Shown: in pieces, positions 20,573-42,633 of the stretch
How the letters are laid out: every line of letters starts with the position of its first letter
How positions within the stretch are numbered: the first letter of the stretch is position 1
Origin: Methylobacterium organophilum
GTDB lineage: Bacteria > Pseudomonadota > Alphaproteobacteria > Rhizobiales > Beijerinckiaceae
Assembly: GCF_022179465.1 (NCBI RefSeq)
Contig: NZ_BPQV01000001.1
Coordinates: forward strand, 517,053 to 581,052
Direction: 5' to 3'
DNA: 64,000 bases
Notes under the pieces: generated by a model
The model's input: the letters and a program-made list of their open reading frames with translations, nothing else
Told to the model about the DNA's origin: nothing
Database searches by the model: none
Translations under genes and position numbers: made by a program

Positions 20573-20702
20573 CGCCGGCGCGCTTCGGCGCGCATCCGGT
20601 CCGCAGGCCGTCCCGGCGGCGGATCCGCCCATCCCTCCCGATCCCAGGGGCCGCCCGGCATCCTCCGTTCCGCCGCGGCCGGCCCCGTCGCGAGTGCGGC
20701 TC

Positions 20703-22022
20703 ATGCGCATCGTCAACACCCTGATCCTCTCCTTGTCCCTCCTCGCCGCCGGCCTTGCCCTCGGGAGCACGGTCCCGGCCGTGTCCGAACGCGTCCGCGC
20801 CAGCCTCGGCTTCGAGACAGGCAGGACGCCGCCGATGCCCGCCGCGTCCGGCCCGAACCCAGATGCCGCGCGGCACGAGGTTTCCGCGGACGGCCACAGC
20901 CAGGCCGGGCACGCCCACTCCGAAACCGAGGGCGAGGAGGGGCATGTCAGGATGACGCCCGAGCAGGTCGAGGCCCAGGATATCCGGGTGGCGAGGGCCG
21001 AGGGCGGGGTGCTCGCCCGGCACATCCTCGTGCCCGGCACGATCACGCCGGATGCCGACCGGATCGCCCGGGTGCCGGCCCGGGTCGTGGGCACCGTCGC
21101 CGAGATGCGCAAGCGCCTGGGCGACGCCGTGACCAAGAACGAGGTCGTCGCCGTCCTCGACAGCCGCGAGGTGGCCGATGCCAAGAGCGAATACCTGACC
21201 GCCTCCGTGAAGGCCGAGCTGGAGAAGACGAATTTCGAGCGGCAGCAGGCGCTCTGGGACAAGCGCATCTCGGCCGAATCCGTCTTCCTCAACGCCAAGG
21301 CCGTCTTTTCGGAAGCGACCCTGCGCCAGGACCTCGCCCGGCAGAAGCTCTCCGCCCTCGGCCTGAATGCGGCGGAGGTGGCCAAGCTCGCCAAACAGGA
21401 CGAGACCACGCCGAACAGCTCGACCCTGCGCCAGTACGAGCTGCGCGCGCCGCTCACCGGCCGGATCGTCGAGCGCAAGGTCGATGTCGGCACCGCGGTC
21501 GGCAAGGAGGGCGACCCGGCCGATCTCTACACCGTGGCCGATCTCTCCACCGTCTGGATCGAGCTCTCGGTGCCGACCGCCGACCTCGTCCACGTGAAGG
21601 AGGGGGCGAACGTCACCGTGACCCCGCGCCAGGAGGGATCGGGCCGCCACGAGCAGGGAAAGGTGATCTTCGTGAGCCCCCTGCTTAACGCCGAGACCCG
21701 GGCCGCCCGGGTCGTGGTCGCCCTGCCCAACGGCGACATGGCCTGGCGCCCCGGCACCTACGTCACCGCCGAGGTCGAGATCGCGCAGGACAGGGTACCG
21801 GTGCGGGTGCCGAAATCCGCCCTGCAGAGCATCGAGGGGAAGCGGGTCGTCTTCGTGCGCACGCAGGAGGGCTTCGAGATGCGCACGATCGAACTCGGAC
21901 GCTCGGACGACGACGCTTTCGAGGTCGCCGCCGGATTGAAGCCGGGCGAGGACATCGCCGTGGCCAACACCTTCCTCCTCAAGGCCGAGCTCGGAAAGAG
22001 CGAAGCCGGCCACGCCCATTGA
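20703..22022 (+). CDS. RND efflux periplasmic adaptor (CzcB/CusB-like)
   Basis: A 439-residue membrane-fusion protein. An N-terminal hydrophobic anchor (about 4-25) is followed by a His-rich stretch (HSQAGHAHSETEGEEGH, about 66-82), a barrel-sandwich hybrid region (VPARVVGTVAEM, VLDSREVADA), a helical hairpin (about 165-225) and beta-barrel domains (YELRAPLTGRIVERK, TVADLSTVWIE). It links the inner-membrane pump to an outer-membrane channel and may pass on metal. The start is ATG at 20703; a GTG at 20694 is possible. The stop lies 11 bases before the pump gene. Confidence 0.88.
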   Translation: MRIVNTLILSLSLLAAGLALGSTVPAVSERVRASLGFETGRTPPMPAASGPNPDAARHEVSADGHSQAGHAHSETEGEEGHVRMTPEQVEAQDIRVARAEGGVLARHILVPGTITPDADRIARVPARVVGTVAEMRKRLGDAVTKNEVVAVLDSREVADAKSEYLTASVKAELEKTNFERQQALWDKRISAESVFLNAKAVFSEATLRQDLARQKLSALGLNAAEVAKLAKQDETTPNSSTLRQYELRAPLTGRIVERKVDVGTAVGKEGDPADLYTVADLSTVWIELSVPTADLVHVKEGANVTVTPRQEGSGRHEQGKVIFVSPLLNAETRAARVVVALPNGDMAWRPGTYVTAEVEIAQDRVPVRVPKSALQSIEGKRVVFVRTQEGFEMRTIELGRSDDDAFEVAAGLKPGEDIAVANTFLLKAELGKSEAGHAH

Positions 22023-22033
22023 GGAGAGGCGCC

Positions 22034-25000
22034 ATGATCGGCCGCATCCTCGACGTCTCGGTCCACCAGCGCTGGCTGGTGCTGCTGCTCTCCCTGCTCG
22101 CCGCGGCCTTTGGCGGCTACGCGGTGACGAAGCTCCCCATCGACGCGGTGCCGGACATCACCAACAACCAGGTGCAGATCAACACGGTCGCGCCCTCGCT
22201 CTCGCCGGTCGATATCGAGAAGCAGGTGACCTACCCGGTCGAAACCGCTTTGGCCGGCATCAAGGGGCTCGAATACACCCGCTCGCTCTCGCGCAACGGC
22301 TTCTCGCAGGTCACCGCCGTCTTCGCGGAGAAGCTCGACATCTATTTCGCCCGCCAGCAGGTCGCCGAGCGCCTCGCCCAGGTGAAGCAGGATCTGCCCC
22401 CCGGCGCCGAGCCCAGCATGGGCCCGATCTCGACGGGCCTCGGCGAGATCTACATGTGGTCGATCCACTATGCGAAGCCCGCCGAGCGCCGGGTCTCGTC
22501 CGAGGGCCAGCCCGGCTGGCAGGCCAACGGCAGCTACCTGACGCCGGAGGGACAGCGCTTGAGGACGGCGCTGGAACAGACCGCCTATCTGCGCACGGTG
22601 CAGGACTGGATCATCCGGCCGCAGATCAGGACCGTGCCCGGCGTGGCCGGGGTCGACGGCATCGGCGGCTTCGAGAAGCAGTACCACGTCCAGCCCGACC
22701 CCAATAAGCTCGCTTCCCTCGACCTGTCCTTCAGCGACGTCGCCCGGGCGCTCGAAGCCAACAACGCCAACCAGGGCGCGCGCTACCTGGAGGATAACGG
22801 CGAGGGCTATGTCGTGCGCGCCGCCGGCCGCCTGGAGAGCATGGCGGCGATCGCCGACGTGGTCGTGGCGACTCGCGGCGGCGTGCCGGTGCGCATCCGC
22901 GACATCGCCGAGGTCCGGATCGGGCGCGACCTGCGCACGGGCTCGGGCAGCGAGGACGGCCAGGAGGTCGTGATCGGCACGGCCCTGATGCTGATCGGCG
23001 AGAACAGCCGCATTGTCGCCGCCGCGGTCGATGCGCGCATGGAGCAGATCCGCAAAAGCCTGCCGCCCGGCATCGAGGTCCAGACCGTGCTCGACCGGAC
23101 CCGCCTCGTCGAGGCGACCATCCGCACGGTGGTGAAGAACCTGTCCGAGGGCGCAGCCCTCGTCATCGTCATCCTGTTCCTGCTGCTCGGCAATGTCCGC
23201 GCGGCTCTCATCACCGCTCTGGTCATCCCCGTGGCCATGCTGATGACGCTGACCGGCATGGTCGAGGCGAGGATCTCAGCCAACCTGATGTCGCTCGGCG
23301 CCCTCGATTTCGGGCTCATCGTCGACGGCGCCGTCATCATCACCGAGAACGCCCTGCGCCATCTCGCGGAGAAGCAACAGGAATACGGGCGCAGGCTCGC
23401 GACCGAGGAACGCCTCGCGACGGTGCGGGCTTCCGCCGAGGAGATGATCAAGCCCTCCCTCTACGGGCAGGCGATCATCATCCTGGTCTACGTGCCGCTC
23501 CTCACCTTCACCGGGGTCGAGGGCAAGATGTTCCAGCCGATGGCGCTCACCGTCATCATCGCGCTGGCCGCCGCCTTCGTGCTGTCCCTGACCTTCGTGC
23601 CGGCCTTGATCGCGATCGCCATCACCGGGCGGGTCACCGAGACCGACAACCCGATCGTCCGGGGGCTGAAAGCTGCCTATCGGCCGGTGCTGGAAGCGGC
23701 CCTGCGGAGGCCCTTCGCCTTCATCGGCGGGGCGCTGTTCCTGCTCCTCGGCGCCGACCTGCTCTTCACGCGGCTCGGTACGGAGTTCATCCCCCAGCTC
23801 GACGAGAAGAGCATCGCCCTCAACGCAACCCGGATTCCCTCGACCTCCCTGACCCAGTCGCAGGCGATGCAGCTCAAGGTGGAGAAGGTGGTCTCGACCT
23901 TCCCGCAGGTGGCCTATGTCTTCTCGAAGACCGGTACTGCCGAGGTCGCGACCGACCCGATGCCGCCCAATTCCTCCGACACCTTCGTCATCCTGAAGCC
24001 GCAGAGTGAATGGCCGGACCCGAGACTGTCCAAGGCCAAGTTGCAGGAGCAGATCGAGGCGGCGGTCGAGAGGCTCGCGGGCAACACTTACGAGTTCTCC
24101 CAGCCGATCCAGCTGCGCTTCAACGAGCTGCTCGCCGGCACCCGGGGTGATCTCGCCGTGAAGGTGTTCGGCGAGGAATTCGCGCCGATGCTGAAGACGG
24201 CCAACCGGATCGCGGCCCTGCTCAAGGGCCTCCCCGGTGCCGAGGACGTGAAGGTCGAGCAGATCGCCGGCCTGCCCTTCCTGGAGATCGGGATCGGCCG
24301 GGCGGAAGCGGCCCGCTACGGGCTCAGCATTGGCGCCGTCCAGGAGGTGATCGGCGCGGCGATCGGTGGCCGGAATGCCGGTGTTGTCTTCGAAGGCGAC
24401 CGGCGTTTCCCTATCGTCGTGCGACTGACCGACGAGGTCCGCGAGGACCGGGAGGCGCTCGAGAACATCCCCGTCCCGCTTCCCCCCGGGCCGAACGGGC
24501 ATGCGGCTTCCGTGCTGCTGAAGCAGGTGGCAAGCTTCTCGGTGACGGAGGGCCCGAACCAGATCAGCCGCGAGAACGGGAAACGCCGGGTGGTCGTCAC
24601 CGCCAATGTGCGCGGACGCGACATCGGCTCCCTGGTGGCGGAGGCGCAAGCCAAGGTGGCCAATGAGATCGCACTGCCCCCCGGTTCCTACGTGACCTGG
24701 GGCGGGCAGTTCGAGAATCTTGCCTCGGCCAAGCAGCGCCTCATGATCGTGGTGCCGGTCTGCTTCTTCCTGATCTTCCTGCTGCTCATCTCGGCGCTGG
24801 GATCGGCCCGGGATGCCCTCCTCGTGTTCAGTGCCGTGCCCTTGGCACTGACGGGGGGCATCCTCGCCCTGTGGCTGCGCGGCATGCCGGTCTCGGTGCC
24901 GGCCGCCGTCGGCTTCATCGCGCTCTCGGGCGTGGCCGTTCTGAACGGCCTGGTGATGCTGACCTTCATCAAGCAGCTGATCGCGGAGGGCCGACTGAAG

Positions 25001-25279
25001 CGGGAGGCGATTGTGGAAGGAGCCATGACCCGGCTGCGACCGGTGGCGATGACCGCGCTGGTCGCCTCCCTCGGCTTCGTGCCCATGGCGCTCGCCACGG
25101 AGACCGGCGCCGAGATTCAGCGGCCGCTCGCCACCGTGGTGATCGGCGGCTTGATCAGCGCCACCCTGCTGACCTTGGTGGTGCTGCCCGCCCTCTATGT
25201 CCGGTTCGGCCGGGCGGAGACGGTGCCGACCGAGGGCTCCGCGGAGCGGATGCCAAGCTCCCTCGAACCTGCCGAATAG
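22034..25279 (+). CDS. Heavy-metal RND efflux pump (CzcA family)
   Basis: A 1081-residue inner-membrane proton-driven pump with the RND layout: helix 1 near the N-terminus, two large periplasmic loops, and helix clusters at about 350-540 and 880-1060. The TM4 motif is DFGLIVDGAVIITEN (about 427-441), the pattern of divalent-cation (Co/Zn/Cd/Ni) pumps rather than of Cu/Ag pumps, judged from published subfamily motifs recalled from memory. The ATG at 22034 follows GAGGAGAGG. No CzcC/TolC-type outer-membrane gene is next to it, so it must borrow one from elsewhere. Convergent with hemJ. Confidence 0.93.
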   Translation: MIGRILDVSVHQRWLVLLLSLLAAAFGGYAVTKLPIDAVPDITNNQVQINTVAPSLSPVDIEKQVTYPVETALAGIKGLEYTRSLSRNGFSQVTAVFAEKLDIYFARQQVAERLAQVKQDLPPGAEPSMGPISTGLGEIYMWSIHYAKPAERRVSSEGQPGWQANGSYLTPEGQRLRTALEQTAYLRTVQDWIIRPQIRTVPGVAGVDGIGGFEKQYHVQPDPNKLASLDLSFSDVARALEANNANQGARYLEDNGEGYVVRAAGRLESMAAIADVVVATRGGVPVRIRDIAEVRIGRDLRTGSGSEDGQEVVIGTALMLIGENSRIVAAAVDARMEQIRKSLPPGIEVQTVLDRTRLVEATIRTVVKNLSEGAALVIVILFLLLGNVRAALITALVIPVAMLMTLTGMVEARISANLMSLGALDFGLIVDGAVIITENALRHLAEKQQEYGRRLATEERLATVRASAEEMIKPSLYGQAIIILVYVPLLTFTGVEGKMFQPMALTVIIALAAAFVLSLTFVPALIAIAITGRVTETDNPIVRGLKAAYRPVLEAALRRPFAFIGGALFLLLGADLLFTRLGTEFIPQLDEKSIALNATRIPSTSLTQSQAMQLKVEKVVSTFPQVAYVFSKTGTAEVATDPMPPNSSDTFVILKPQSEWPDPRLSKAKLQEQIEAAVERLAGNTYEFSQPIQLRFNELLAGTRGDLAVKVFGEEFAPMLKTANRIAALLKGLPGAEDVKVEQIAGLPFLEIGIGRAEAARYGLSIGAVQEVIGAAIGGRNAGVVFEGDRRFPIVVRLTDEVREDREALENIPVPLPPGPNGHAASVLLKQVASFSVTEGPNQISRENGKRRVVVTANVRGRDIGSLVAEAQAKVANEIALPPGSYVTWGGQFENLASAKQRLMIVVPVCFFLIFLLLISALGSARDALLVFSAVPLALTGGILALWLRGMPVSVPAAVGFIALSGVAVLNGLVMLTFIKQLIAEGRLKREAIVEGAMTRLRPVAMTALVASLGFVPMALATETGAEIQRPLATVVIGGLISATLLTLVVLPALYVRFGRAETVPTEGSAERMPSSLEPAE

Positions 25280-25307: not shown

Positions 25308-25748
25308 TCAGCGGAATTCGGGCTTCACCACCACGAGGATCACGATCAGGATCATCAGCAGGGTCGGGACCTCGTTGACGATCCGGAAGAAGCGGCCGTC
25401 ATGCCGGTTCGCATCCCGGGCGAAGTTCTTGCGCAGCCGGGCAAGCCAGCCATGCACGCCGCTGAGCACCAAGACCAGAGCGAATTTCCCCTGGAGCCAG
25501 CCCGTCTGATAATATCCGCTCCAGAACGCGATGGTCAGTCCCGACAGCCACGTGACGATCATGGCCGGCGTCATGATGAAGCGCAGGAGACGATATTCCA
25601 TCGTCTTGAACAGTTCGGACTGTTTGGCGTCCGTTGCGCTCAGACCTGCGTGATAGACGAAGAGGCGCGGCAGATAGAGCATGCCGGCCATCCACGAAAT
25701 CACGGCGATGACGTGGAGGGCTTTGATCCAGGGATAGAGATCGGGCAT
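25308..25748 (-). CDS. hemJ: Protoporphyrinogen IX oxidase HemJ
   Basis: A 146-residue, four-helix membrane protein of the HemJ (UPF0093) family, which oxidises protoporphyrinogen IX late in haem synthesis in most alphaproteobacteria. The conserved histidine of WIKALHVIAVISWMAG, expected to bind haem b, and the LKxK-like motif (LRKNFARD here) are visible. It is 3 bases downstream of hemE, so the two are cotranscribed. Length is normal. Confidence 0.92.
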   Translation of the reverse strand: MPDLYPWIKALHVIAVISWMAGMLYLPRLFVYHAGLSATDAKQSELFKTMEYRLLRFIMTPAMIVTWLSGLTIAFWSGYYQTGWLQGKFALVLVLSGVHGWLARLRKNFARDANRHDGRFFRIVNEVPTLLMILIVILVVVKPEFR

Positions 25749-25751
25749 CGC

Positions 25752-26825
25752 TCAGCCGCGCCGGATCCGGGCGAGCATTCGCTCGACATGGGCCACCGGA
25801 GTCTGCGGCAGGATGCCGTGGCCGAGATTGAAGATGTGCGGCTTGCCCGCGACCGCCTCCAGGATTTCGTCCACCGCCCGGTCGAGGGCCTCGCCGCCGG
25901 CGATGAGGATGTCGGGATGGAGGTTGCCCTGGGTCACGGCACCGGCCGGCAGGGTCCGGCGAAGCTGGTCGAGGGCGATCGACCAGTCGACGCCGACGAC
26001 ATCCGCGCCGGTCTCGGCCAGGACGCGGGCATGGCCGTCGAGGCCGCTGCCGCGGGCAAAGACCACGATCTTGGCCTCGGGCCGTTCGGCCCGGATACCC
26101 TCGATCATCCGCCGGATCGGCGTGAAGGACCATTCGCTCAGGGCATCGCCCGCCATGCCGGTGGCGTCGGGCAGCATGCCGGCATGGGATTCGAAGATCT
26201 GGACGATGTCGGCACCGGCCTCGAACTGTTGAAGCAGATAGCGGGTCTGAACCGTGACCAGCCGATCGATCAGATCCTTGACGAGCGCCGGTTGCGTTGC
26301 CGCCAGGGTTCGCGCCGGCAGCTGGTCGGCGCTGCCGCCGCCATTGATCATGTAGCTCGCCACGGTCCAGGGCGCGCCGCAGAAGCCGAACAGGGTGGTC
26401 TGCCGCGGCAGAGCAGCTCGGATCAGGCTCACCGCTTCGAAGACGGGTGCGAGATGTCCCAGCACGCCGGGATCCCCCGCATCGCGCAATTGTGCGAAGG
26501 CTTCACCGTCCCGGATCGGCTCGAGCTTCGGTCCTTCCCCTTCGACGAAGGTCACCGCCTGGCCAAGGGCATGAGGAACGACGAGAATGTCGGAGAACAG
26601 GATCGACGCATCGAAGCCGAAACGGCGGATCGGCTGCAGCGTCACTTCGGTGGCAAGCTTCGGAGTGTAGCAGAGATCGAGAAACGACCCGGCCTGGGCA
26701 CGTGTCTGCCGATATTCTGGCAGGTAGCGACCAGCCTGACGCATGAGCCAGACCGGAGGTGCCACGAAGCTCTTTCCGGAGAGGACATCCAAGACGACTT
26801 TCTCGGATGAAGGGTTGCTCGTCAT
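25752..26825 (-). CDS. hemE: Uroporphyrinogen decarboxylase
   Basis: A 357-residue HemE, which decarboxylates uroporphyrinogen III to coproporphyrinogen III. The N-terminal PPVWLMRQAGRYLPEYR, the FSDILVVPHALG segment, GFCGAPWTVASYM and the C-terminal FNLGHGILPQTP are all present. It reads away from a non-coding block that carries origin-like signals, the same arrangement as hemE beside the Caulobacter origin. hemJ follows in the same transcript. Confidence 0.96.
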   Translation of the reverse strand: MTSNPSSEKVVLDVLSGKSFVAPPVWLMRQAGRYLPEYRQTRAQAGSFLDLCYTPKLATEVTLQPIRRFGFDASILFSDILVVPHALGQAVTFVEGEGPKLEPIRDGEAFAQLRDAGDPGVLGHLAPVFEAVSLIRAALPRQTTLFGFCGAPWTVASYMINGGGSADQLPARTLAATQPALVKDLIDRLVTVQTRYLLQQFEAGADIVQIFESHAGMLPDATGMAGDALSEWSFTPIRRMIEGIRAERPEAKIVVFARGSGLDGHARVLAETGADVVGVDWSIALDQLRRTLPAGAVTQGNLHPDILIAGGEALDRAVDEILEAVAGKPHIFNLGHGILPQTPVAHVERMLARIRRG

Positions 26826-26984
26826 CTTGAAAATAAAACCCTTCTTCCTGTCTTTACTTGGTTTTCTTCAGTTCAACTTGAAGGTGCTCGCCAACCGGAT
26901 TCGAACACACCCCTATCTTACATAGAAAATGAGAGAATCGAGGTTTTTTTCTTTTTCTAGAGGCTGAGTCCTGCGGATCCAACG

Positions 26985-26993
26985 TTGTCCACA
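26985..26993 (+). promoter_or_regulatory. DnaA-like box
   Basis: TTGTCCACA differs from the DnaA consensus TTATCCACA at one position. It lies 23 bases before the CtrA box in the presumed origin. Confidence 0.55.
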
Positions 26994-27015
26994 GGATGCC
27001 CCCACTGCGTCGCGA

Positions 27016-27031
27016 TTAACCGGGCTTTAAC
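27016..27031 (+). promoter_or_regulatory. CtrA-binding site
   Basis: TTAA, seven bases (CCGGGCT), TTAAC: an exact match to the CtrA consensus TTAA-N7-TTAAC. In Caulobacter CtrA bound at such sites blocks initiation in swarmer cells. Here it could control replication, hemE transcription, or both. Confidence 0.7.
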
Positions 27032-27536
27032 GGGTCCCGTCTAACTTTTCGATTCATGACGGGGTGACAGGTCCTTAGCGGGCCAAACACCACCGTGGCG
27101 CAGTCTCGTGCTGCGTTTTGCAAAGTGGCTCGTTCTCACGAAGCCGTCGGGACGCCGTTGTGGACGAATCGGTTTCCGATTCACAGCCCCGAGCCTGGTC
27201 TGCATCCGCTGTCCGAATCCATCCCCAAGCTGCCGATGCTTCCGAGACCGTGATTCCGGTCGGGTCTCCGCCTTTCAAAGCGGCCATGAATCCCTCGCAG
27301 CCGATTGTTGCAAATGTCAAAATCGGCGAAAAAACGGATACGCTGTCACCGTCGATGGTGGTTGGATCGTGATGAACGATCAAGTGATCTTCCGATCTCC
27401 GCGACATTTGACCGAATGCATTGTCGTCAGGCCGTAGGCGAGATGAGTAAGCGATGGGAAGGGCAAGGCCCAGAAATGAAAAAGACCACTCAGTCGAGCG
27501 GCCTTCTGAATTTTATCGTCGATATCTTAAAAACGG

Positions 27537-28574
27537 CTAGGAAATTTTCGACCTAATTCTTTGAAGGCCTGCCTCCGCCAGATTTAGATGTTCTTCTCTT
27601 GCCGTACAAAGGTAGTTGAGAACGCGCGCTCCGACGTTCTGAGCGAGCCAGTCCTGCGTCGAAGATCTGTCGTACGGCTTCAGCGAGATGCTCTCATCGT
27701 CGATCGCGTAGATCTTGTAGCCGTACTCATCAAGGATTGCATGGCAGGCAGCGAATTTTTCGGCACCTTGGATTTCGAGGAAGAGCGTCGGAAGCCCCCG
27801 GAGCGTATTTCTTGCTCCGGCGAGCACGATGTCCTCCAAGCCCTCCACGTCGATCTTCAGCAAATCCGGATCAAGGATTCCTTGCTGTGTCAGGATCACG
27901 TCGAGAGGGGCCGCCGTCACCACTTCCGTCCTGACCGCGACATCGGCGGCGTTCTCGCTGTACCCTGCGAGAGAGGCGCCGGTATCAAGCACGTCCGGTC
28001 CCCAGGCGACCCGCAGCGTTAACGTACCCACTGCGTTCGACACTGCGAAAGGGCATACCTTGAGTTTCGGATAACAGCCATTGGCGACGAGGTTGGTGAA
28101 CAGCCGCGCCCGCGTCGCCGGGTTAGGCTCTACCGCCAGAACGGTGGCTTTCGGAGCGGCGAGCTGGGCTAGGATCCCGTAGAGGCCGGTGAAGGCGCCG
28201 ACATCCGCCACGGCTTTCGCGGTGCGCGCGATCTTGAGCCAAGCCGCCACGCTCGCGGCCTCATAGCTGTCGGGGCCGTAGGCATGGTAGACCATGGCCA
28301 CGCCATCATCATTGGTCGATAGCATCGTAAAATCGATGTGATCGACAGAGCAGGCTACCCAACCAAAGTATGGGCGCTCTGCTCTGAACCTATGACCATC
28401 GACATCGTGCTGGCTTGCTGGTCGATATTGATAGCCCGGCTGCCGCCATGGTCTCGCAGCCAACGAGGCATCGTTCAGCGAATTGAGCCACCCGGCTCGC
28501 GTCCCATCGAGATGCATCCCATGCCCCGCTCTTGCGTCGAGGCACCAATAAATCAGAGGTAGTTGTCGTATCAA
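27537..28574 (-). CDS. FkbM family methyltransferase
   Basis: A 345-residue protein with a C-terminal FkbM-type SAM-dependent methyltransferase domain (about 110-290). Motif I is VADVGAFTGLYG, followed by AVEPNPATRARLF and the family signature LLKIDVEGLEDIVLAGA. FkbM enzymes methylate sugars or other hydroxyl groups, often on surface glycans; the substrate here is unknown. The first 100 residues have no recognised domain. The start is doubtful: TTG at 28574 without a ribosome site, or ATG at 28517. It lies between the presumed origin and an integrase remnant, with lower GC than the core genes, so it may be island cargo with a damaged 5' end. Confidence 0.75.
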   Translation of the reverse strand: MIRQLPLIYWCLDARAGHGMHLDGTRAGWLNSLNDASLAARPWRQPGYQYRPASQHDVDGHRFRAERPYFGWVACSVDHIDFTMLSTNDDGVAMVYHAYGPDSYEAASVAAWLKIARTAKAVADVGAFTGLYGILAQLAAPKATVLAVEPNPATRARLFTNLVANGCYPKLKVCPFAVSNAVGTLTLRVAWGPDVLDTGASLAGYSENAADVAVRTEVVTAAPLDVILTQQGILDPDLLKIDVEGLEDIVLAGARNTLRGLPTLFLEIQGAEKFAACHAILDEYGYKIYAIDDESISLKPYDRSSTQDWLAQNVGARVLNYLCTAREEHLNLAEAGLQRIRSKIS

Positions 28575-28784
28575 GACATCAATTTAAGATTGCATCCCGC
28601 TTACGAGACGCCCAAAGCACACATCGGATTGCCGGAGCGCTATCGCAATCCGGGCCGCACCCGCCTCACCAGGTGCCGGTTCACGACCCGGGACTGGCTG
28701 TCGCTCGCCGGTATCCCGATCGTGATGCTCGGCGTGATCGCGCACACCATTGACCAGCCGGTCGGGTAGCTGCCGTAACGATTT

Positions 28785-29119
28785 ATGCCCAAGCGGTCGG
28801 CACCTCGGCGACCTCCATCGTGTCGCGGGGTGAGCGCATCTCGAACTTCGTCGACTACCTGCAGGCGCATTCCAGCTCGGCCCGGGCCGGCACGACAGTG
28901 CCACGGCCCCAGCGTGCGTTGCAGACGTCCAGCGCCGCCATCACCCCGCACACCCTGCGGGCACACCGCAGCGACATGGCTCATGCTCAACGGGACCGAC
29001 CTGTGGGGAGCCGCCGGTTATCTCGGCACGACCACGAGACGCTCGAGCATGTCTACGGCCATCACCACCCGGACCACCAGAAGCAGGCCGCGGCGAACAT
29101 CGTGCGGAAGATCGGATGA
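28785..29119 (+). pseudogene. Tyrosine recombinase (integrase) remnant, C-terminal part, frameshifted
   Basis: Reading three successive frame segments rebuilds the catalytic end of a phage-type integrase: ITPHTLR, then HTAATWLMLNGTDLWGAAGY, then ETLEHVYGHHHPDHQ. An extra base near 28960 and a missing base near 29034 break and then restore the frame. The His-x-x-Arg box, the second His and the tyrosine nucleophile in HVYGHHHP can all be seen, but no single frame encodes them. The N-terminal two thirds are not recognisable; bases 28575-28784 hold nothing I can name. The remnant reads toward the 3' end of tRNA-Pro, the usual integration target, so a genomic island probably once entered here. Confidence 0.8.
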
Positions 29120-29188
29120 AGCCCGGTCCACGCTTAGAGCAAGGGCGCTTGGCTTAAACGGCAAGTATCGAGAAGATCTCGGGAATCT

Positions 29189-29265
29189 TGGTCGGAGTGG
29201 CAGGATTTGAACCTGCGACCCCCACGTCCCGAACGTGGTGCGCTACCAGACTGCGCTACACTCCG
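29189..29265 (-). tRNA. tRNA-Pro (anticodon CGG)
   Basis: A 77-base cloverleaf on the minus strand. Acceptor stem CGGAGTG pairs with CACTCCG, followed by A and an encoded CCA. The anticodon stem CCACG/CGTGG encloses loop TTCGGGA, giving anticodon CGG (proline, codon CCG). The T-arm carries GTTCAAATC. Its 3' end points at the integrase remnant 70 bases away. Confidence 0.97.
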
Positions 29266-29352
29266 AAGCTGGGCCCCAGGGGGCCAGCGGGTCGGCTTAT
29301 AGCGAGGGGGCCTTCCGGCTGCAAGTGAAACCGGCGATTCCTTTTCGCCTGC

Positions 29353-30117
29353 TCAGGAACGGCATTCCGGCAGAGCGCGGAACCAGCCGGCCGGCAGAGT
29401 GCGGTGCTGCAGGGAGGCACCGGAGGCCTCGATCGCGACCGCACCGGGATGCCGCGCATCCGCATGGGCGTCGTGCAGGCTCCAGGCGGTGGCGTCCGTT
29501 CCCGGGCTCGCCAGGGCCAGGAGACGCGGCACGGCGGGCGGGAGGCTCACGCTGATCCGCTCGAGCCCGAAGCCGATCCCGATTCCGAGGGCCTTCAGCA
29601 CGGCTTCCTTGCGCGTCCAGGCCCCGTAGAAGGCATCTTCCTTCGCGGATTCGGGAAGCCTTCGAAAGATCTCCCGTTCGCTTACCGACAGGATACGGCA
29701 GGCGAACTCGGCCAGATCCGGAATCGGGCGGATGCCTTCGACATCGACGCCGATCCGATGGCTCGGGCTCACGGCGATCAGCGCATGGGATCCGGAATGG
29801 GTGAGGTTGAACTGCAACCGGCCCTGCCAGGGCGGCGCGAGATCCGGCTTACCATTCGCGTCCCGCGGAAAGGCGAGGACGTGGGGCGGACAGTCCAAGG
29901 CGGCGCCGAGGATCAGGCGCAGGGCCGCCCGGCTGCCGACGGAGCGATCATGGTCCTCCCGCCGATGGAAGCGGTCCGCCTGCCCGCGCTCCGCCTCGTC
30001 CAGGAGGTCGCGGCAGGCGGCGCGACCCGCGGCGTCGAGATCGATCGGGACGCGCCAGACCACCGGTCCGGCAACGGGGCCGGGACGCGCCTCGATCCAG
30101 GGCGAGGGCGCGATCAC
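29353..30117 (-). CDS. 4'-phosphopantetheinyl transferase (Sfp type)
   Basis: A 254-residue enzyme that moves phosphopantetheine from CoA to carrier proteins of fatty-acid, polyketide or peptide synthesis. The two family motifs are visible: IGVDVEGI (Mg2+ and CoA binding) and FYGAWTRKEAVLKALG. FNLTHSGSHALIAVS precedes them, as expected. Length matches the Sfp/Gsp group rather than the short AcpS group. The GTG at 30117 overlaps the preceding stop by 4 bases, so it is translationally coupled to the M16 peptidase gene. The carrier-protein partner is not in this window. Confidence 0.9.
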   Translation of the reverse strand: MIAPSPWIEARPGPVAGPVVWRVPIDLDAAGRAACRDLLDEAERGQADRFHRREDHDRSVGSRAALRLILGAALDCPPHVLAFPRDANGKPDLAPPWQGRLQFNLTHSGSHALIAVSPSHRIGVDVEGIRPIPDLAEFACRILSVSEREIFRRLPESAKEDAFYGAWTRKEAVLKALGIGIGFGLERISVSLPPAVPRLLALASPGTDATAWSLHDAHADARHPGAVAIEASGASLQHRTLPAGWFRALPECRS

Positions 30118-31409
30118 GCTGCGCGGAAGGCGTGCGTGATTTGCTCGAGGGACGGCAGCTTGCGGATCGGGCCGATCGCCGACAGGGTCGGCAGGCCCGC
30201 CAGCATCTGGCGGCCGGCCTCCCGCACCGCCTCGACACCGGCGGCATCGACCTTGGCGATGATCTCCTGCGCGGGGATGATGCGGCCCCAGGCGAGGAGA
30301 TGGCGGGCATTGCGCTCGATCCGGCCGCCCGGCGTCTCCAGGGCGGAGAGCAGGGAGACCTTGAGCTGGGCCTTGGCCCGGGCGAGCTCTTCCGCGTCGA
30401 GCTGCTCCGTCGCCGCACGGGTCGCCGCGATCGTGACCTCGACGAGCTCCGGCAGGTCCTCGGCCGAGGTGCCTGCTCCGATGCCGAACAGGCCGCAATC
30501 GGAGAAGGGCCAGTGGAAGGCCTGGATCTCGTAGGCGAGGCCGCGGGTCTCGCGCACCTCGTGCCAGAGCCGCGAGGTCAGGCCACCGCCGAGCACCTGG
30601 CTGAACAGGTGCAGGGCGTAATAGCCCTCGTCCCGGAAGGAGAGGCCCGGCAGGCCGATGACGAGGTTGGCCTGTTCCAGCTTGCGGAGCAGACGCCGCT
30701 CGCCGCCGCGATAGAGGCCGGCCTCCATCTCCGGCGCCGCAGCGGGGGCGAGATGGCCGAAGGACTTTTCCGCCGCGGCGACGATGGCCTCGTGCTCCAC
30801 GGCGCCGGCGGCGGCGAGCACCATCCGGCCCGGCACGTATTCGCGGGCGAGGTAGCCCTCGATCGCGGCCCGGTCGAAACCCGAGATCGTCTCCGGCGTG
30901 CCGAGGATCGGCCGACCCACGGCCTGGCCGGGGAAGGCGGCTTCCGTGAAGGCCTCGTAGACCACGTCGTCGGGGGTGTCCTCGATCGCGGCGTATTCCT
31001 GCAGGATCACGCTCTTCTCGCGGGCGAGCTCGCCGGCATCGAAGGTCGAGCGGGTCAGGATGTCGCCGATCACGTCGAGGGCGACCTCGACATCCTCGCC
31101 GAGCACCCGGGCGGTGTAGCTCGTGCTCTCGGTGCTCGTGGCGGCGTTGATCTCGCCGCCCACATTCTCGATGTCCTCCGCGATCCGCCGGGCGGAGCGG
31201 GTCTGCGTGCCCTTGAAGGCCATGTGCTCGATGAGATGGCTCAGGCCATGCTCCTCGGGCCGCTCGTTGCGCGAACCGACGCCGACCCAGACGCCGAGGG
31301 TGGCGGTGGCCACCCCCGGGATCGCCTCGGTGGCGACGGTGAGCCCGTTGGCGAGGCGGCTGACGCGCAGGCCCGGCGAGGCGCCGAAGGTCGAGAAATG
31401 CTGGTTCAT
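30114..31409 (-). CDS. M16 family zinc peptidase (processing peptidase-like)
   Basis: A 431-residue inverzincin. The active-site HLIEH (HxxEH) is at about residues 57-61 in SHLIEHMAFKGT, and the distal Glu lies about 75 residues later near EKSVILQEYAAIEDTP. The glycine-rich loop VLGGGLTSRLW, typical of mitochondrial processing peptidase beta-like proteins, is also present. Alphaproteobacterial homologues sit next to thrC, as here; their substrates are unclear. Start and stop each overlap a neighbour by 4 bases. Confidence 0.92.
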   Translation of the reverse strand: MNQHFSTFGASPGLRVSRLANGLTVATEAIPGVATATLGVWVGVGSRNERPEEHGLSHLIEHMAFKGTQTRSARRIAEDIENVGGEINAATSTESTSYTARVLGEDVEVALDVIGDILTRSTFDAGELAREKSVILQEYAAIEDTPDDVVYEAFTEAAFPGQAVGRPILGTPETISGFDRAAIEGYLAREYVPGRMVLAAAGAVEHEAIVAAAEKSFGHLAPAAAPEMEAGLYRGGERRLLRKLEQANLVIGLPGLSFRDEGYYALHLFSQVLGGGLTSRLWHEVRETRGLAYEIQAFHWPFSDCGLFGIGAGTSAEDLPELVEVTIAATRAATEQLDAEELARAKAQLKVSLLSALETPGGRIERNARHLLAWGRIIPAQEIIAKVDAAGVEAVREAGRQMLAGLPTLSAIGPIRKLPSLEQITHAFRAA

Positions 31410-32824
31410 ACCGGGCTGCCCCGCGTGATCCGTGCGCGCTCGCGGATGAACCGCTCCACCGCCGACTGGTCGTTGGCGAGGTTCGCGACCGTCTCCGGCC
31501 GGTCCATCAGGTCGGCGAGATGCGGCGGCAGGACGGGACGGCCGCCGCCGGTGGCCTGCGAGACCGCGTCCGGGAACTTGGCCGGATGCGCGGTGGCCAG
31601 AGCCACCACGGGGGTCTTCGGGTCCTTCTGCAGGAGCTTGCGCCCGGCCCGCACGCCGATGGCGCTGTGGGGATCGAGCACCACCCCCGTCTTCCGGTAG
31701 GTGCCGGCGATCTCGTCGACCACGTCGGGCTCGTGCACGGCGGCGGCGTCGAACTCGCTGCGCACGCTGCGCAGGACCGCCGCGTCGAGGTGGAAGCCGC
31801 CCGACTGCTTCAGGCCCGCCATCAGCCGGCCGAGCGCGGCGGCGTCGCGGCCGAGGGCCTCGAACAGCAGCCGCTCGAAATTCGAGGAGATCTGGATGTC
31901 CATCGAGGGCGAGGTCGTCGCCTGCACGCCGCGGATCTCGTAGGCGCCGTGCTCCAGCGTCCGGGCCAGGATGTCGTTGGCGTTGGTGCCGATCATCAGC
32001 CGCTCGACCGGCAGGCCCATGCGCTTGGCGACCCAGCCGGCGAGGATGTCGCCGAAATTGCCCGTCGGCACCGCGAAGGAGACCGGGCGATGGGGCGCGC
32101 CGAGGCTGACGGCGCTCGTGAAGTAATAGACCGCCTGCGCCGCGACCCGGGCCCAGTTGATCGAGTTGACGCCGGAGAGCCGGACCGAATCGGCGAAATC
32201 CGCGTGCTGGAACATCGCCTTCACGAGGTTCTGGCAATCGTCGAAATTGCCGTCGATGGCGATGGCGTGCACGTTCGGCGAGACGATGGTGGTCATCTGC
32301 TTGCGCTGCACGTCCGAGACGCGGCCATGCGGGAACAGGATGAACACGTCGACCTGATCGAGGCCCTTGAAGGCCTCCACCGCGGCGCTGCCGGTATCGC
32401 CCGAGGTGGCGCCGACGATGGTGGCGCGGGCGCCGCGCTGGCGCAGGACATGGTCCATCAGCCGCCCGAGCAGCTGCATCGCCACGTCCTTGAAGGCGAG
32501 CGTCGGGCCGTGGAAGAGCTCGAGCAGGAAGAGATTGTCGTCGAGCTGCGTCAGCGGGCAGATCGCCGGGTGCCGGAAGGTGCCGTAGGCGGCCTCGATC
32601 ATCCCGTCGAGATCCGCATCCGCGATCTCGCCGTCGATCAGCGGGCGCAGGACACGCTTGGCGGCGTCGGCGTAGCGGATGCCGGCGAGATCGGCGATCT
32701 CCGCTTTCGACATCACCGGCCAGCTCTCGGGCACGTAGAGACCGCCGTCACGGGCGAGGCCGGCGAGAAGGGCGTCGGAAAAGCTCAAGGGCGCGGCGGC
32801 GCCGCGGGTCGAGACGTGCAGCAA
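31406..32824 (-). CDS. thrC: Threonine synthase
   Basis: A 472-residue PLP enzyme that turns O-phosphohomoserine into threonine. The PLP-binding lysine lies in GPTLAFKDVAMQLLG, and the phosphate-binding loops are seen in GATSGDTGSAA and PTGNFGDILAG. The N-terminus begins STRGAAAPLSFSDALL, typical of the longer type II ThrC. The start is TTG at 32824 with GGAGG 5 bases upstream. It leads an overlapping operon with the M16 peptidase and the phosphopantetheinyl transferase. Confidence 0.95.
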   Translation of the reverse strand: MLHVSTRGAAAPLSFSDALLAGLARDGGLYVPESWPVMSKAEIADLAGIRYADAAKRVLRPLIDGEIADADLDGMIEAAYGTFRHPAICPLTQLDDNLFLLELFHGPTLAFKDVAMQLLGRLMDHVLRQRGARATIVGATSGDTGSAAVEAFKGLDQVDVFILFPHGRVSDVQRKQMTTIVSPNVHAIAIDGNFDDCQNLVKAMFQHADFADSVRLSGVNSINWARVAAQAVYYFTSAVSLGAPHRPVSFAVPTGNFGDILAGWVAKRMGLPVERLMIGTNANDILARTLEHGAYEIRGVQATTSPSMDIQISSNFERLLFEALGRDAAALGRLMAGLKQSGGFHLDAAVLRSVRSEFDAAAVHEPDVVDEIAGTYRKTGVVLDPHSAIGVRAGRKLLQKDPKTPVVALATAHPAKFPDAVSQATGGGRPVLPPHLADLMDRPETVANLANDQSAVERFIRERARITRGSPV

Positions 32825-32906
32825 GGATGCCTCCGGGAAGGCGCTCCCTCTACACGATGACGAAACGCGTGTCGAAGCGGAGCCGAAGATGTCGTTCGCG
32901 CGAAGA

Positions 32907-33326
32907 TCAGGTGTTGCTGCCGGGCGCCTTGCGCAGCTGGCATCCGGTGATGCGCCATTGCCCGTCCGTCTGCTTCTGCAGGGAATAGACGGCGAGCCAG
33001 TCGATGCCGTTCTCGTCCTGCAGGCTCAGGCCCTGCGTGATTTCGTCCTCGCCCGTGTCCTCGCTGCCGGCAAAGCTGTAGCTGCGCGGGCGCAGCACCG
33101 CGGGATAGCCCTTCTCGACCATGGCGAGGAAGGTTTCGGGAGAGGGGAACAGGGTGCGGATCTGGGGCGCGGCCTGATCATAGGCGGTGGCCGGGTCGTT
33201 CCGGCGGAAGGCCTCGATCTGCCGCGTGATGGTGCCCCGTGCCGCCTGCCGGTCGGCCTCGTCGGCCGCGAGGCCCGCGGCGGGCATCAGGAGCGTCAGG
33301 AGGACGCCCGAGAGGACGATGCGCAT
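32907..33326 (-). CDS. Secreted DUF4864-like protein
   Basis: A 139-residue protein with a Sec signal (1-20, ending GLAA). The mature part (TRQIEAFRRNDPATAYDQAAP, MVEKGYPAVLRP, YSLQKQTDGQWRITGC) looks like the alphaproteobacterial DUF4864 family, related in fold to NTF2/SnoaL-like domains. No catalytic residues are evident. The ATG at 33326 is preferred to one 63 bases upstream because only it starts a signal peptide. Lies 44 bases after opgG on the same strand. Confidence 0.75.
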   Translation of the reverse strand: MRIVLSGVLLTLLMPAAGLAADEADRQAARGTITRQIEAFRRNDPATAYDQAAPQIRTLFPSPETFLAMVEKGYPAVLRPRSYSFAGSEDTGEDEITQGLSLQDENGIDWLAVYSLQKQTDGQWRITGCQLRKAPGSNT

Positions 33327-40487: not shown

Positions 40488-41480
40488 TCAGCCGAGCTTG
40501 GCCAGGAGGCCCTCGGCCAGCTCGTTGCCCTGGGTGAAGACGTAATCGACCTTGCGCACGGTCACGGAATGCGCGCCCGCCCGGGCCAGCTCTTCGGAGA
40601 GGGCGAAGGCGGCATCGGCCTGGCAGTGCAGGATCAGCTCCCGGGCCCCGGCCTCCGGCGCCCCGTAGGGCGGCGCGGCCCCGTGCCGGGCGGCGATTCC
40701 GGAGAGATCGATGGCCTCCCCCTCGGGCAGCCCCGCCCGGATCTCCCGGGTGGTGCGGGCCCGTTCCTCGGCGGCGATGCGGCCGAGGACGCGGCGCAGG
40801 GCCTCCCGCGCGGTCGGGCTCCAGGGCGCCTTCAGGGAGGCGACGAGATTGGCCTCGGAGCGCAGGATCACGCCGTCGTCGAGGATCTTGAGGGCGTTGG
40901 CGGCCAGCGTCGCCCCGGTCGTGGTGATGTCGACGATGATCTCGGCCGAGCCCGCCGCCGGCGCGCCCTCGGTGGCGCCCAGGCTCTCGACGATGCGGTA
41001 ATCGACGATGCCCGCCTCGGCGAAGAAGCGCCGGGTCAGGTTCACGTATTTCGTGGCGATGCGCAGGCGGCGGCCCTGGCGCAGGCGCATCTCGCTGGCG
41101 ACCTCGTCGAGATCGGCCATGGCCCGCACGTCGATCCAGGCCTGCGGCACGGCGACCACCACCGTCGCCTGGCCGAAGCCCAGGGGCGTCAGCAGTTCGA
41201 CGGCCTCGGCGCTCTCCGGCAGGGTCTCGCGGATCAGGTCCTCGCCGGTCACGCCGAGATGGGCGGCGCCGCTGGCGAGCTGCGCCGCGATCTCGGAGGC
41301 CGAGAGGAAGCGCACCTCGACATTGTCCACGCCGACGAGCTTGCCGCGGTAGTCGCGGGCGCCGCCGCTCTGGGCGAGCTTCAGCCCGGCGCGGCCGAAG
41401 AAGGCGGTGGCGTTCTCCTGCAGCCGGCCCTTCGAGGGCACGGCGAGGACGAGGGGGCTGTCGTCTTGCGGCATCGTCAT
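40488..41480 (-). CDS. hisG: ATP phosphoribosyltransferase catalytic subunit
   Basis: A 330-residue HisG, first enzyme of histidine synthesis, joining ATP and PRPP. The N-terminal VLAVPSKGRLQENATAFF, HLGVTGEDLI, RIATKYVNLTRRFF and the PRPP loop EIIVDITTTGATLAAN are clear. It is longer than the short-form HisG that usually pairs with HisZ, owing to a C-terminal segment of about 100 residues, yet hisZ lies 16 bases upstream. That pairing is common in alphaproteobacteria. The start is ATG at 41480. Confidence 0.94.
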   Translation of the reverse strand: MTMPQDDSPLVLAVPSKGRLQENATAFFGRAGLKLAQSGGARDYRGKLVGVDNVEVRFLSASEIAAQLASGAAHLGVTGEDLIRETLPESAEAVELLTPLGFGQATVVVAVPQAWIDVRAMADLDEVASEMRLRQGRRLRIATKYVNLTRRFFAEAGIVDYRIVESLGATEGAPAAGSAEIIVDITTTGATLAANALKILDDGVILRSEANLVASLKAPWSPTAREALRRVLGRIAAEERARTTREIRAGLPEGEAIDLSGIAARHGAAPPYGAPEAGARELILHCQADAAFALSEELARAGAHSVTVRKVDYVFTQGNELAEGLLAKLG

Positions 41481-41496
41481 GCTCACGCGCTCGGCC

Positions 41497-42633
41497 TCAG
41501 GCGCTCTGGACGCAGCGGGTGAGCCAGAAGGCGCAGCCCACCGCCGGCAGGGGCTCGGCACTGCCGAGATGCTGGAGCAGGCCGTCGTAGCGGCCGCCGC
41601 CGACGAGGGGCGCGGAGCCCCCGGCCCGCGTCGCCTCGAAGATGAAGCCGGTATAGTAGTCGAGATTGCGGGCGAAGCCGCCGGCATAGCGGAAGCGCTC
41701 GATCGGCAGGCCGCGGGCGGCCATGAAGCCGGTGCGTTCCTCGAACAGGGCCAAGGCCGCCTCCAGCCCGGCATCGGCCAGCCCCGCCTCGCGGGTAAGG
41801 CCGCGCAGGTCGGCCAGGGCCCGGTCGGGATCGCCGGCGATGGCGCAGAAGCGCTCGATCAGCCCCCGGTTGTCCTCGTTCAGCCCGGCGCCGCCCTGGG
41901 CCTGCATCGCCGCCTTGGCGAGGAAGCGCTCCGCGATCTCGCCGGCGCTGCGGCCGCCGACCCGGGAGATGCCGGCGATGGAGAGCACGTCCTCCACGAA
42001 GGCGCGCACGCCCTTGGGGTCCTGCCCCTGGATCGCCGCGAGCAGGCCCGCATGCGGGTCCTCGGCCCCCGCCGCATTGGCGAGCCCGGCGATGGGCCGC
42101 CCGGCGGCGATCGCCCGCAGGGTCCGCCGCTTGGCGACGGGGGGCACCTTCAGCGCGTCGAGGAAGGCCTGGGTCAGGCCCATGTCGCCGAAGCGGATGG
42201 CGGCATCGCTCACCCCGAGGAGCTCCAGCCCCTCCAGGGCGAGGCCCAGCACTTCCGCATCGGCGGCGGGGGTGTCGGTGCGGCCGATCGATTCGATGCC
42301 CGCCTGCACGAACTCGTCGGATTCCCCCGCCGCGAGGCGGAAGACCGGGCCGAGATAGCTGTAATCGGCGGCCTGCCCGGGGCGGCTCGCCTGGTGGTGC
42401 CGACAGACGGGGATCGTGAATTCCGGCCGCAGGCACAGCTCGGCCCCGGCCGCGTCCTGGGTCACGAAGATGCGGCGGCGGATATCCTCGCCCGACAATT
42501 CCAGGAAGGGCTCGACCGGCTGCAGCACCGGCGGCGCGACGAGGGCATAGCCGGACGCGACGAGATGCCGGGACAGATGCCCGTAGCGCTCCGTCTCGAG
42601 CCCGCCGGTCGCTATCGCCTCAGGTCGCGTCAT
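41497..42633 (-). CDS. hisZ: ATP phosphoribosyltransferase regulatory subunit
   Basis: A 378-residue HisZ, a histidyl-tRNA synthetase paralogue that lacks charging activity and mediates histidine feedback on HisG. Class II synthetase-like motifs are seen in LRPEFTIPVCRHHQ and YLGPVFR, and the C-terminal catalytic-domain part is VGGGRYDGLLQHLG. There is no anticodon-binding domain. The ATG at 42633 has AAAGGACG upstream. Cotranscribed with hisG. Confidence 0.93.
   Translation of the reverse strand: MTRPEAIATGGLETERYGHLSRHLVASGYALVAPPVLQPVEPFLELSGEDIRRRIFVTQDAAGAELCLRPEFTIPVCRHHQASRPGQAADYSYLGPVFRLAAGESDEFVQAGIESIGRTDTPAADAEVLGLALEGLELLGVSDAAIRFGDMGLTQAFLDALKVPPVAKRRTLRAIAAGRPIAGLANAAGAEDPHAGLLAAIQGQDPKGVRAFVEDVLSIAGISRVGGRSAGEIAERFLAKAAMQAQGGAGLNEDNRGLIERFCAIAGDPDRALADLRGLTREAGLADAGLEAALALFEERTGFMAARGLPIERFRYAGGFARNLDYYTGFIFEATRAGGSAPLVGGGRYDGLLQHLGSAEPLPAVGCAFWLTRCVQSA

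Follow-up and report, generated by a model that had tools for sequence, protein, structure and literature searches.

The hemE gene (uroporphyrinogen decarboxylase) is found at 25752-26825 on the minus strand of the window, by which we mean the whole 64-kb stretch of DNA analysed here, and a non-coding gap sits directly upstream of it. The gene was identified by Pfam (URO-D, E 3e-104) and by a TIGR01464 match at C1:542813-543847, C1 being the 581-kb, partly masked contig that carries the window. A hemJ-like UPF0093 gene (25308-25748, minus strand; Pfam UPF0093, E 5e-58) lies next to hemE, as it does in 35 of 35 congeners. On the other side of the gap, at the place where ppsR would be expected, is an FkbM-type methyltransferase gene (27537-28574, minus strand; Pfam Methyltransf_21, E 2.8e-15), and tRNA-Pro(CGG) (29189-29265, minus strand) forms the right edge of a low-GC stretch that follows. 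Pfam further placed hisG (40488-41774) and a hisZ-like gene (41497-42633) on the minus strand at 40488-42633.

Two features of the surroundings were noted in passing. The stretch from the putative origin to tRNA-Pro (27537-29188) has a GC content of 0.59-0.64, versus 0.70, and contains the FkbM methyltransferase gene and broken frames; these frames, which gave no Pfam match, presumably resemble the C-terminal part of a tyrosine integrase. A search for exact repeats of 12-29 bases, direct or inverted, as might mark an integrative element, found none between the tRNA and 26826-29188. On the other flank a CusB/CusA-type heavy-metal efflux pair (20694-25279) adjoins hemJ, and the six best plasmid matches of the larger protein (82-88.5%) are on Methylobacterium or Methylorubrum plasmids, a protein similarity from which the genus is named in this work. 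Judged from sequence, this pair may be a mobile insertion beside the unit formed by hemJ, hemE and the putative origin.

The gap itself holds an AT-rich, GANTC-dense intergenic block (26826-27330, unstranded, the right-hand limit being approximate) that we regard as a putative chromosomal origin. Its GC content is 0.46 at 26826-27050 and 0.59 at 27050-27330, compared with 0.70 to the right at 29266-33000, and neither of the two ORFs inside it gave a Pfam match, in agreement with the first-pass annotation, which had described AT-rich runs and no credible gene. The full CtrA box reported there is also present. At 27016-27031 (plus strand) TTAACCGGGCTTTAAC is a perfect TTAA-N7-TTAAC site, the sole perfect match within the window, and the other perfect matches on C1 are found at only two places, 163 and 192 kb. 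When up to one mismatch was allowed the window gave five matches, falling near 644, 1303 and 27016, against 0.14 expected.

A DnaA box, TTGTCCACA, is located at 26985-26993 (plus strand), one mismatch from TTATCCACA, and aligns with the R-TCCACA box of the congeners. It is the window's only match to TTATCCACA at one mismatch or less, and as 2.19 such matches are expected by chance the box taken alone means nothing. The weaker box mentioned in the first-pass annotation is at best TCGTCCACA at 27159-27167 (minus strand), one of four sites in the block with two mismatches, in addition to the single one with one mismatch. A T-rich run at 26944-26958 (plus strand), in the place of the congeners' TTTTTTCT tract, is a candidate unwinding element, and a weak IHF-like site at 27042-27054 (minus strand) has one mismatch to WATCAANNNNTTR, a match that was scored with no chance control.

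The nine GANTC sites claimed for 26898-27292 were all located, at 26898, 26935, 26966, 27051, 27166, 27178, 27215, 27252 and 27288. The window as a whole holds 99 GANTC, or 1.55 per kb, and the earlier figure of about 1.5 sites expected at random is of the right order. Dinucleotide-preserving shuffles of the 395-bp span (GC 0.557) gave a mean of 2.41 sites and reached nine or more in 1 of 2000 cases; for the full 711-bp block the excess is weaker, with a shuffle mean of 4.67 and 69 of 2000 shuffles reaching nine. Among the 770 GANTC of C1 the block beside hemE forms the top 400-bp cluster, and any other independent 400-bp stretch has at most four sites. A chance cluster is rejected on this comparison along C1, on the shuffles of the 395 bp and on the alphaproteobacterial hemE loci presented below. 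We also tried GANTC scarcity as a sign of CcrM and dropped it: GANTC occurs on C1 at 0.51 of expectation, but CANTG, TANTA, CTNAG and TGNCA are lower still. A motif search of C1 and 14 stretches of contig C2 did not find ccrM, which counts against reading the block as an origin.

The hemE neighbourhood was compared in 35 of the 36 congeners of our first set of relatives, G015 being left out as its hemE match was partial. In all 35, ppsR (PF03618, COG1806/DUF299) is divergent from hemE, and throughout the genus it is adjacent and divergent to hemE in 110 of 112 genomes, with our own genome counted among the 112. The hemE-ppsR gaps of the 35 congeners measure 458-826 bp and carry 5-11 GANTC each, and the top 400-bp GANTC cluster of the 13-19-kb locus falls or ties upstream of hemE in every case (35/35). 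All 35 gaps likewise have an R-TCCACA box with a TTAA-N7-TTAA site no more than 60 bp after it, the longer TTAA-N7-TTAAC is present in 27 of 35, and a T-tract pattern stands at the place of the T-rich run in 34 of the 35 congeners. In an alignment of 17 of these gaps with the window, GANTC inside an AT-rich repeat comes first, followed by the T-rich run, the DnaA box and the CtrA box, and then by more GANTC and a second DnaA box towards ppsR; the core motifs of our block keep the order and spacing of the congeners. The nhmmer profile built on all 35 gaps matched 26919-27076 (unstranded) at E 1.3e-17 over model positions 130-289 of 573, and by blastn 26916-27048 matches 26 of the 35 congeners at E<=1. 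Orthology of the block with the hemE/COG1806 origin is hence strongly supported by the sequence comparison. It should be noted that the conservation in relatives which the first-pass annotation had named as a check was found for the half proximal to hemE, while the ppsR-proximal half of the relatives is unrecognisable here.

The absence of ppsR, the usual second neighbour, from the other edge of the block had been missed in the first-pass annotation. Our own ppsR is on C2 at 482 kb, inside the contig; another gene ends 88 bp upstream, the 500 bp above it hold 2 GANTC, and the genes after it we take, from position and sequence, to be maf-like and then aroE-like. The ppsR-proximal motifs of the congener gaps, GATTCTCCCA (28/35), GAGTCGA (32/35) and T-TCCMCA-N4-TCGACTC (34/35), are all missing from our block, and the last of these was not found elsewhere in our genome, its two 2-mismatch matches lying in neither case near ppsR. 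Nor did the profile of the congener gaps find another convincing place in C1 or the C2 stretches searched, except for the start of ppsR. The distal half of the block (27077-27330, unstranded) holds five GANTC, and no homology could be detected between it and the part of the congener gaps that lies towards ppsR. A loose alignment of a few words hints that it may have diverged from the old half rather than been replaced.

Both genes hisG and hisZ are in the fetched stretch for 27 of the 35 congeners, and in most of these they lie on the hemJ side, past hemE by about 3-4 kb (median offsets +2.9 and +4.0 kb), with at least one congener having them on the other side; in our genome they are found on the opposite side of the origin. 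As ppsR is on C2 and hisG/hisZ have changed sides, at least one inversion or equivalent event appears to have broken the ppsR edge, the GANTC-rich part staying with hemE. Our genome is one of two exceptions among the 112, and in both the GANTC-rich block has stayed with hemE. In the other, G083 (G083:C51:1-20000), ppsR is about 9 kb from hemE in the same orientation, and both origin halves are beside hemE. A single break common to the two genomes was considered and is not supported, as G083 ranks 22 of 37 by hemE and 5 of 37 by ppsR and its origin keeps both halves.

Further we looked at hemE loci from named alphaproteobacterial records, of which 66 of 80 were used and 14 dropped for their short flanks. 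At 65 of the 66 loci the 500 bp upstream of hemE are richer in GANTC than the local rate predicts. Where ppsR is present the excess is seen in 55 of 56 loci (mean 4.55 versus 0.99 expected), and where it is absent in 10 of 10 (mean 5.80 versus 0.81 expected). Five of the ten loci lacking ppsR belong to Aurantimonadaceae, judging by record title or genus name (Aurantimonas, Jiella twice, Aureimonas and one more); for some of them we presume the family from the genus, and Mangrovicella we take to be a probable sixth. The six loci from Aurantimonadaceae or likely kin (L066, L077, L085, L086, L103 and L130) have no nearby ppsR and 4-10 GANTC in the 500 bp upstream of hemE, and the loss or move of ppsR in them may be lineage-wide. 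The highest density was seen in Sphingomonas oligoaromativorans, with 17 GANTC in a hemE-ppsR gap of 316 bp and 20 within 400 bp, far above the other loci compared. A similar asymmetry is described for Wolbachia wMel: according to the passages cited, more than 600 kb separate hemE from COG1806, and the origin is predicted to lie next to hemE (PMC1914354). Since the loci lacking ppsR keep their GANTC excess and Wolbachia has this asymmetry, loss of the ppsR link seems to have been tolerated repeatedly. Loss of the hemE link was unseen in our sample, but the sample was collected by hemE and is blind to origins elsewhere.

A skew minimum at the locus had been named in the first-pass annotation as another check, and here the outcome is mixed. 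Our own genome is a 113-contig draft whose GC skew is weak, irregular and shuffled, and too weak to place an origin. The sequence GGG[CG]AGGG, which we take to be an FtsK-type polarity motif, has its best polarity change on C1 at about 264-292 kb, 250-280 kb from the block (at about 544 kb), being forward in 17 of 63 cases before and 67 of 95 after. This change fails to support the block, though shuffling can explain it: C1:280-570 kb is for the most part patched together from blocks, some in one orientation and some in the other, that flank hemE-ppsR in the complete congener G091, and because of this mosaic of inverted blocks the polarity of C1 is unreliable and neither places nor excludes an origin. 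The corresponding comparison with G091 at 3.64-4.02 Mb shows that the genes near its hemE-ppsR are extensively shuffled and inverted in our genome.

In G091 itself (4.66 Mb, of which 1.15 Mb was sampled; n=204 motif sites) GGG[CG]AGGG is strongly oriented; its polarity switches once at 1.07-1.18 Mb and a second time at 3.810-3.826 Mb (2-log support). Its hemE-ppsR pair is at 3.765-3.768 Mb, 45-60 kb from the latter change, and a change fixed at hemE is 13 log-likelihood units worse than the best point, which coincides with a cluster at 3.822-3.828 Mb that we take from the gene sequences to be parB-parA-rsmG-mnmG. The motif polarity of G091 places the macro-location right to about 1% of the chromosome, but on the finer scale it is parAB that the change favours. 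Cumulative GC skew over the sampled parts dips locally near 3.80 Mb and is lowest at 3.98-4.02 Mb, 0.21-0.25 Mb from hemE. The GANTC cluster of hemE-ppsR has 6 sites in 400 bp, a count that four other clusters in the 1.15 Mb sampled also reach. The cost of 13 units, the offset of the skew minimum and the GANTC tie all count against an origin at hemE. Over the 35 congener stretches GGGNAGGG points away from the hemE-ppsR gap 143 times versus 104 times towards it.

Of 19 congeners, 18 have their best-scoring parB at a distance of 16-425 kb from hemE, and in the remaining one it is on a different contig. The distance is about 8 kb in G055, which belongs to another family, and in our genome a parB-like gene is found about 198 kb from the block. 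A parS search at up to two mismatches gave three places, C1:347544 (the best, with one mismatch, in the parAB-gidA cluster), C1:503495 and one on C3. The control pattern gave 2 and 2, and at hemE there was no parS-like site at this threshold. Within C1:340001-360000 the parS-like site is at the start of rsmG in what we presume from sequence to be our own parB-parA-rsmG-mnmG cluster. The dnaA gene (C1:96483) was rejected as the origin, as it is about 447 kb from the block and has no polarity change.

Taken together, we find it highly probable that the block serves as the origin of chromosome replication and is an orthologue, in rearranged form, of the hemE/COG1806 origin of the Caulobacter type. 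We favour this because the block is the densest GANTC cluster of C1, because of the ppsR-hemE neighbourhood in the genus, the motifs of the congener gaps, the profile match and the GANTC excess upstream of hemE in the alphaproteobacterial loci, and further because parB is near hemE in most congeners, because the polarity of G091 changes in this region and because C1 is a mosaic of the blocks flanking hemE-ppsR. On the other hand, the block has a single good DnaA box, having lost the conserved second one, and a single CtrA site, all of which count against an origin. The probable origin beside hemE put forward in the first-pass annotation is supported in part: the orthology is strongly backed, whereas skew and polarity give no clean placement at the locus.

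It is improbable, in our opinion, that the active origin is elsewhere, for example near parAB or at C1:264-292 kb, and that the block is the hemE promoter with a half-lost relic of a former origin. The polarity change of our own contig, the loss of the ppsR-proximal half together with its second DnaA box, and the polarity change of G091 at parAB instead of hemE would all fit such a relic, but nine GANTC, a count towards the upper end of the 5-11 seen in relatives, are more than a relic would be expected to have kept, and the core motifs are intact in order and spacing. In C1 and the part of C2 examined there was furthermore no rival site of comparable content, as C1 has no second independent 400-bp stretch with more than four GANTC and perfect TTAA-N7-TTAAC only at the two distant places given above, and the polarity argument is weakened by the inverted blocks of C1. 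Less probable still is that the block is the origin while the missing ppsR and distal half are an artefact of assembly, with the contig misjoined right of the origin. The genome is a draft of many contigs and synteny changes just at the junction, which would fit a misjoin, but the kilobase around the junction is single-copy (one match in the genome), ppsR is well inside another contig with a different gene close upstream, the main motif of the distal half has only its two imperfect matches in the genome, and G083 is broken at the same side.

If the block is the origin, as we favour, a working model can be outlined from its sites. DnaA would bind the box at 26985 and the weaker sites, and the T-rich run beside the box would open. 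CtrA, when phosphorylated and bound to the neighbouring TTAA-N7-TTAAC site, would block DnaA until cleared and so hold back initiation in cells that are not replicating, as at the Caulobacter origin. The GANTC sites would be hemimethylated once the fork passes and remethylated by CcrM late in the cycle; in Caulobacter, CcrM activity is described as confined to the end of S phase (PMC11514494, in the passages cited). Hemimethylated GANTC could then mark an origin that has already fired, and we put forward a direct role of GANTC in the control of initiation as a hypothesis. As for the history of the locus, the chromosome presumably broke on the ppsR side, so that the origin stayed with hemE-hemJ while ppsR and the genes following it moved; the distal half would then have diverged or been replaced, yet stayed GANTC-dense.

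The kind of origin is already known. The hemE/COG1806 neighbourhood is that of the experimentally identified Caulobacter origin and also of the Rickettsia origin (PMC1914354, in the passages cited), and GANTC sites in the Caulobacter origin are published (PMC3973325, likewise in part). Like Caulobacter crescentus Cori and the Rickettsia type, as far as the cited passages describe them, our block has hemE at one edge, an AT-rich gap, TTAA-N7-TTAA and a DnaA-type box (PMC1914354), along with several GANTC (PMC3973325). Unlike Cori, it lacks COG1806/ppsR at the other edge and has an unrecognisable distal half, and it has one CtrA site and one good DnaA box, whereas five CtrA sites are reported for Cori in the passages cited (PMC1914354). 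In the predicted origins of Wolbachia, Ehrlichia and Anaplasma (hemE-COG1253) hemE and COG1806 were also split by rearrangement and the origin is beside hemE, according to the same passages (PMC1914354). A second gene, COG1806/ppsR, at the other edge is thus usual and not defining for an origin of the hemE type, as it is absent at these predicted origins. Our case differs from the Wolbachia group in that the new neighbour is the FkbM methyltransferase gene, then tRNA-Pro, and in that the split is not lineage-wide, the old arrangement being retained in nearly all of the genus. Compared with the hemE-ppsR gaps of the genus, the hemE-proximal half is alike (GANTC in an AT-rich stretch, T-rich run, DnaA box and CtrA box) and the ppsR-proximal half is lacking.

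The chromosomes of M. extorquens AM1 and DM4 are described as numbered by convention from dnaA, since no GC skew had been seen (PMC2680597). Titles and abstract beginnings among the literature matches listed place no Methylobacterium origin at hemE, although databases such as DoriC may already predict it, and a literature word search found no paper joining Methylobacterium, hemE or heme, and oriC. What is new, as far as we have searched, is the architecture across the genus for Methylobacterium-like genomes, together with a member in which the ppsR edge is broken.

We tentatively suggest, while regarding it as the less likely outcome, that the origin survived the loss of its second neighbour and rebuilt its distal half, selection having preserved the link to hemE, the pairing of DnaA and CtrA sites and how many GANTC sites there are, but not where they lie. 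If this is true, GANTC density would itself be one of the working parts of the origin, whose functional partner would be hemE and not ppsR. For the group at large, a definite and testable origin is offered by the hemE-ppsR gap of the genus, where GANTC, DnaA and CtrA sites recur in a set order. The rare genomes that have lost ppsR from this place hint at which link the origin requires, and they may serve as natural experiments on selection for the number of GANTC sites at an origin.
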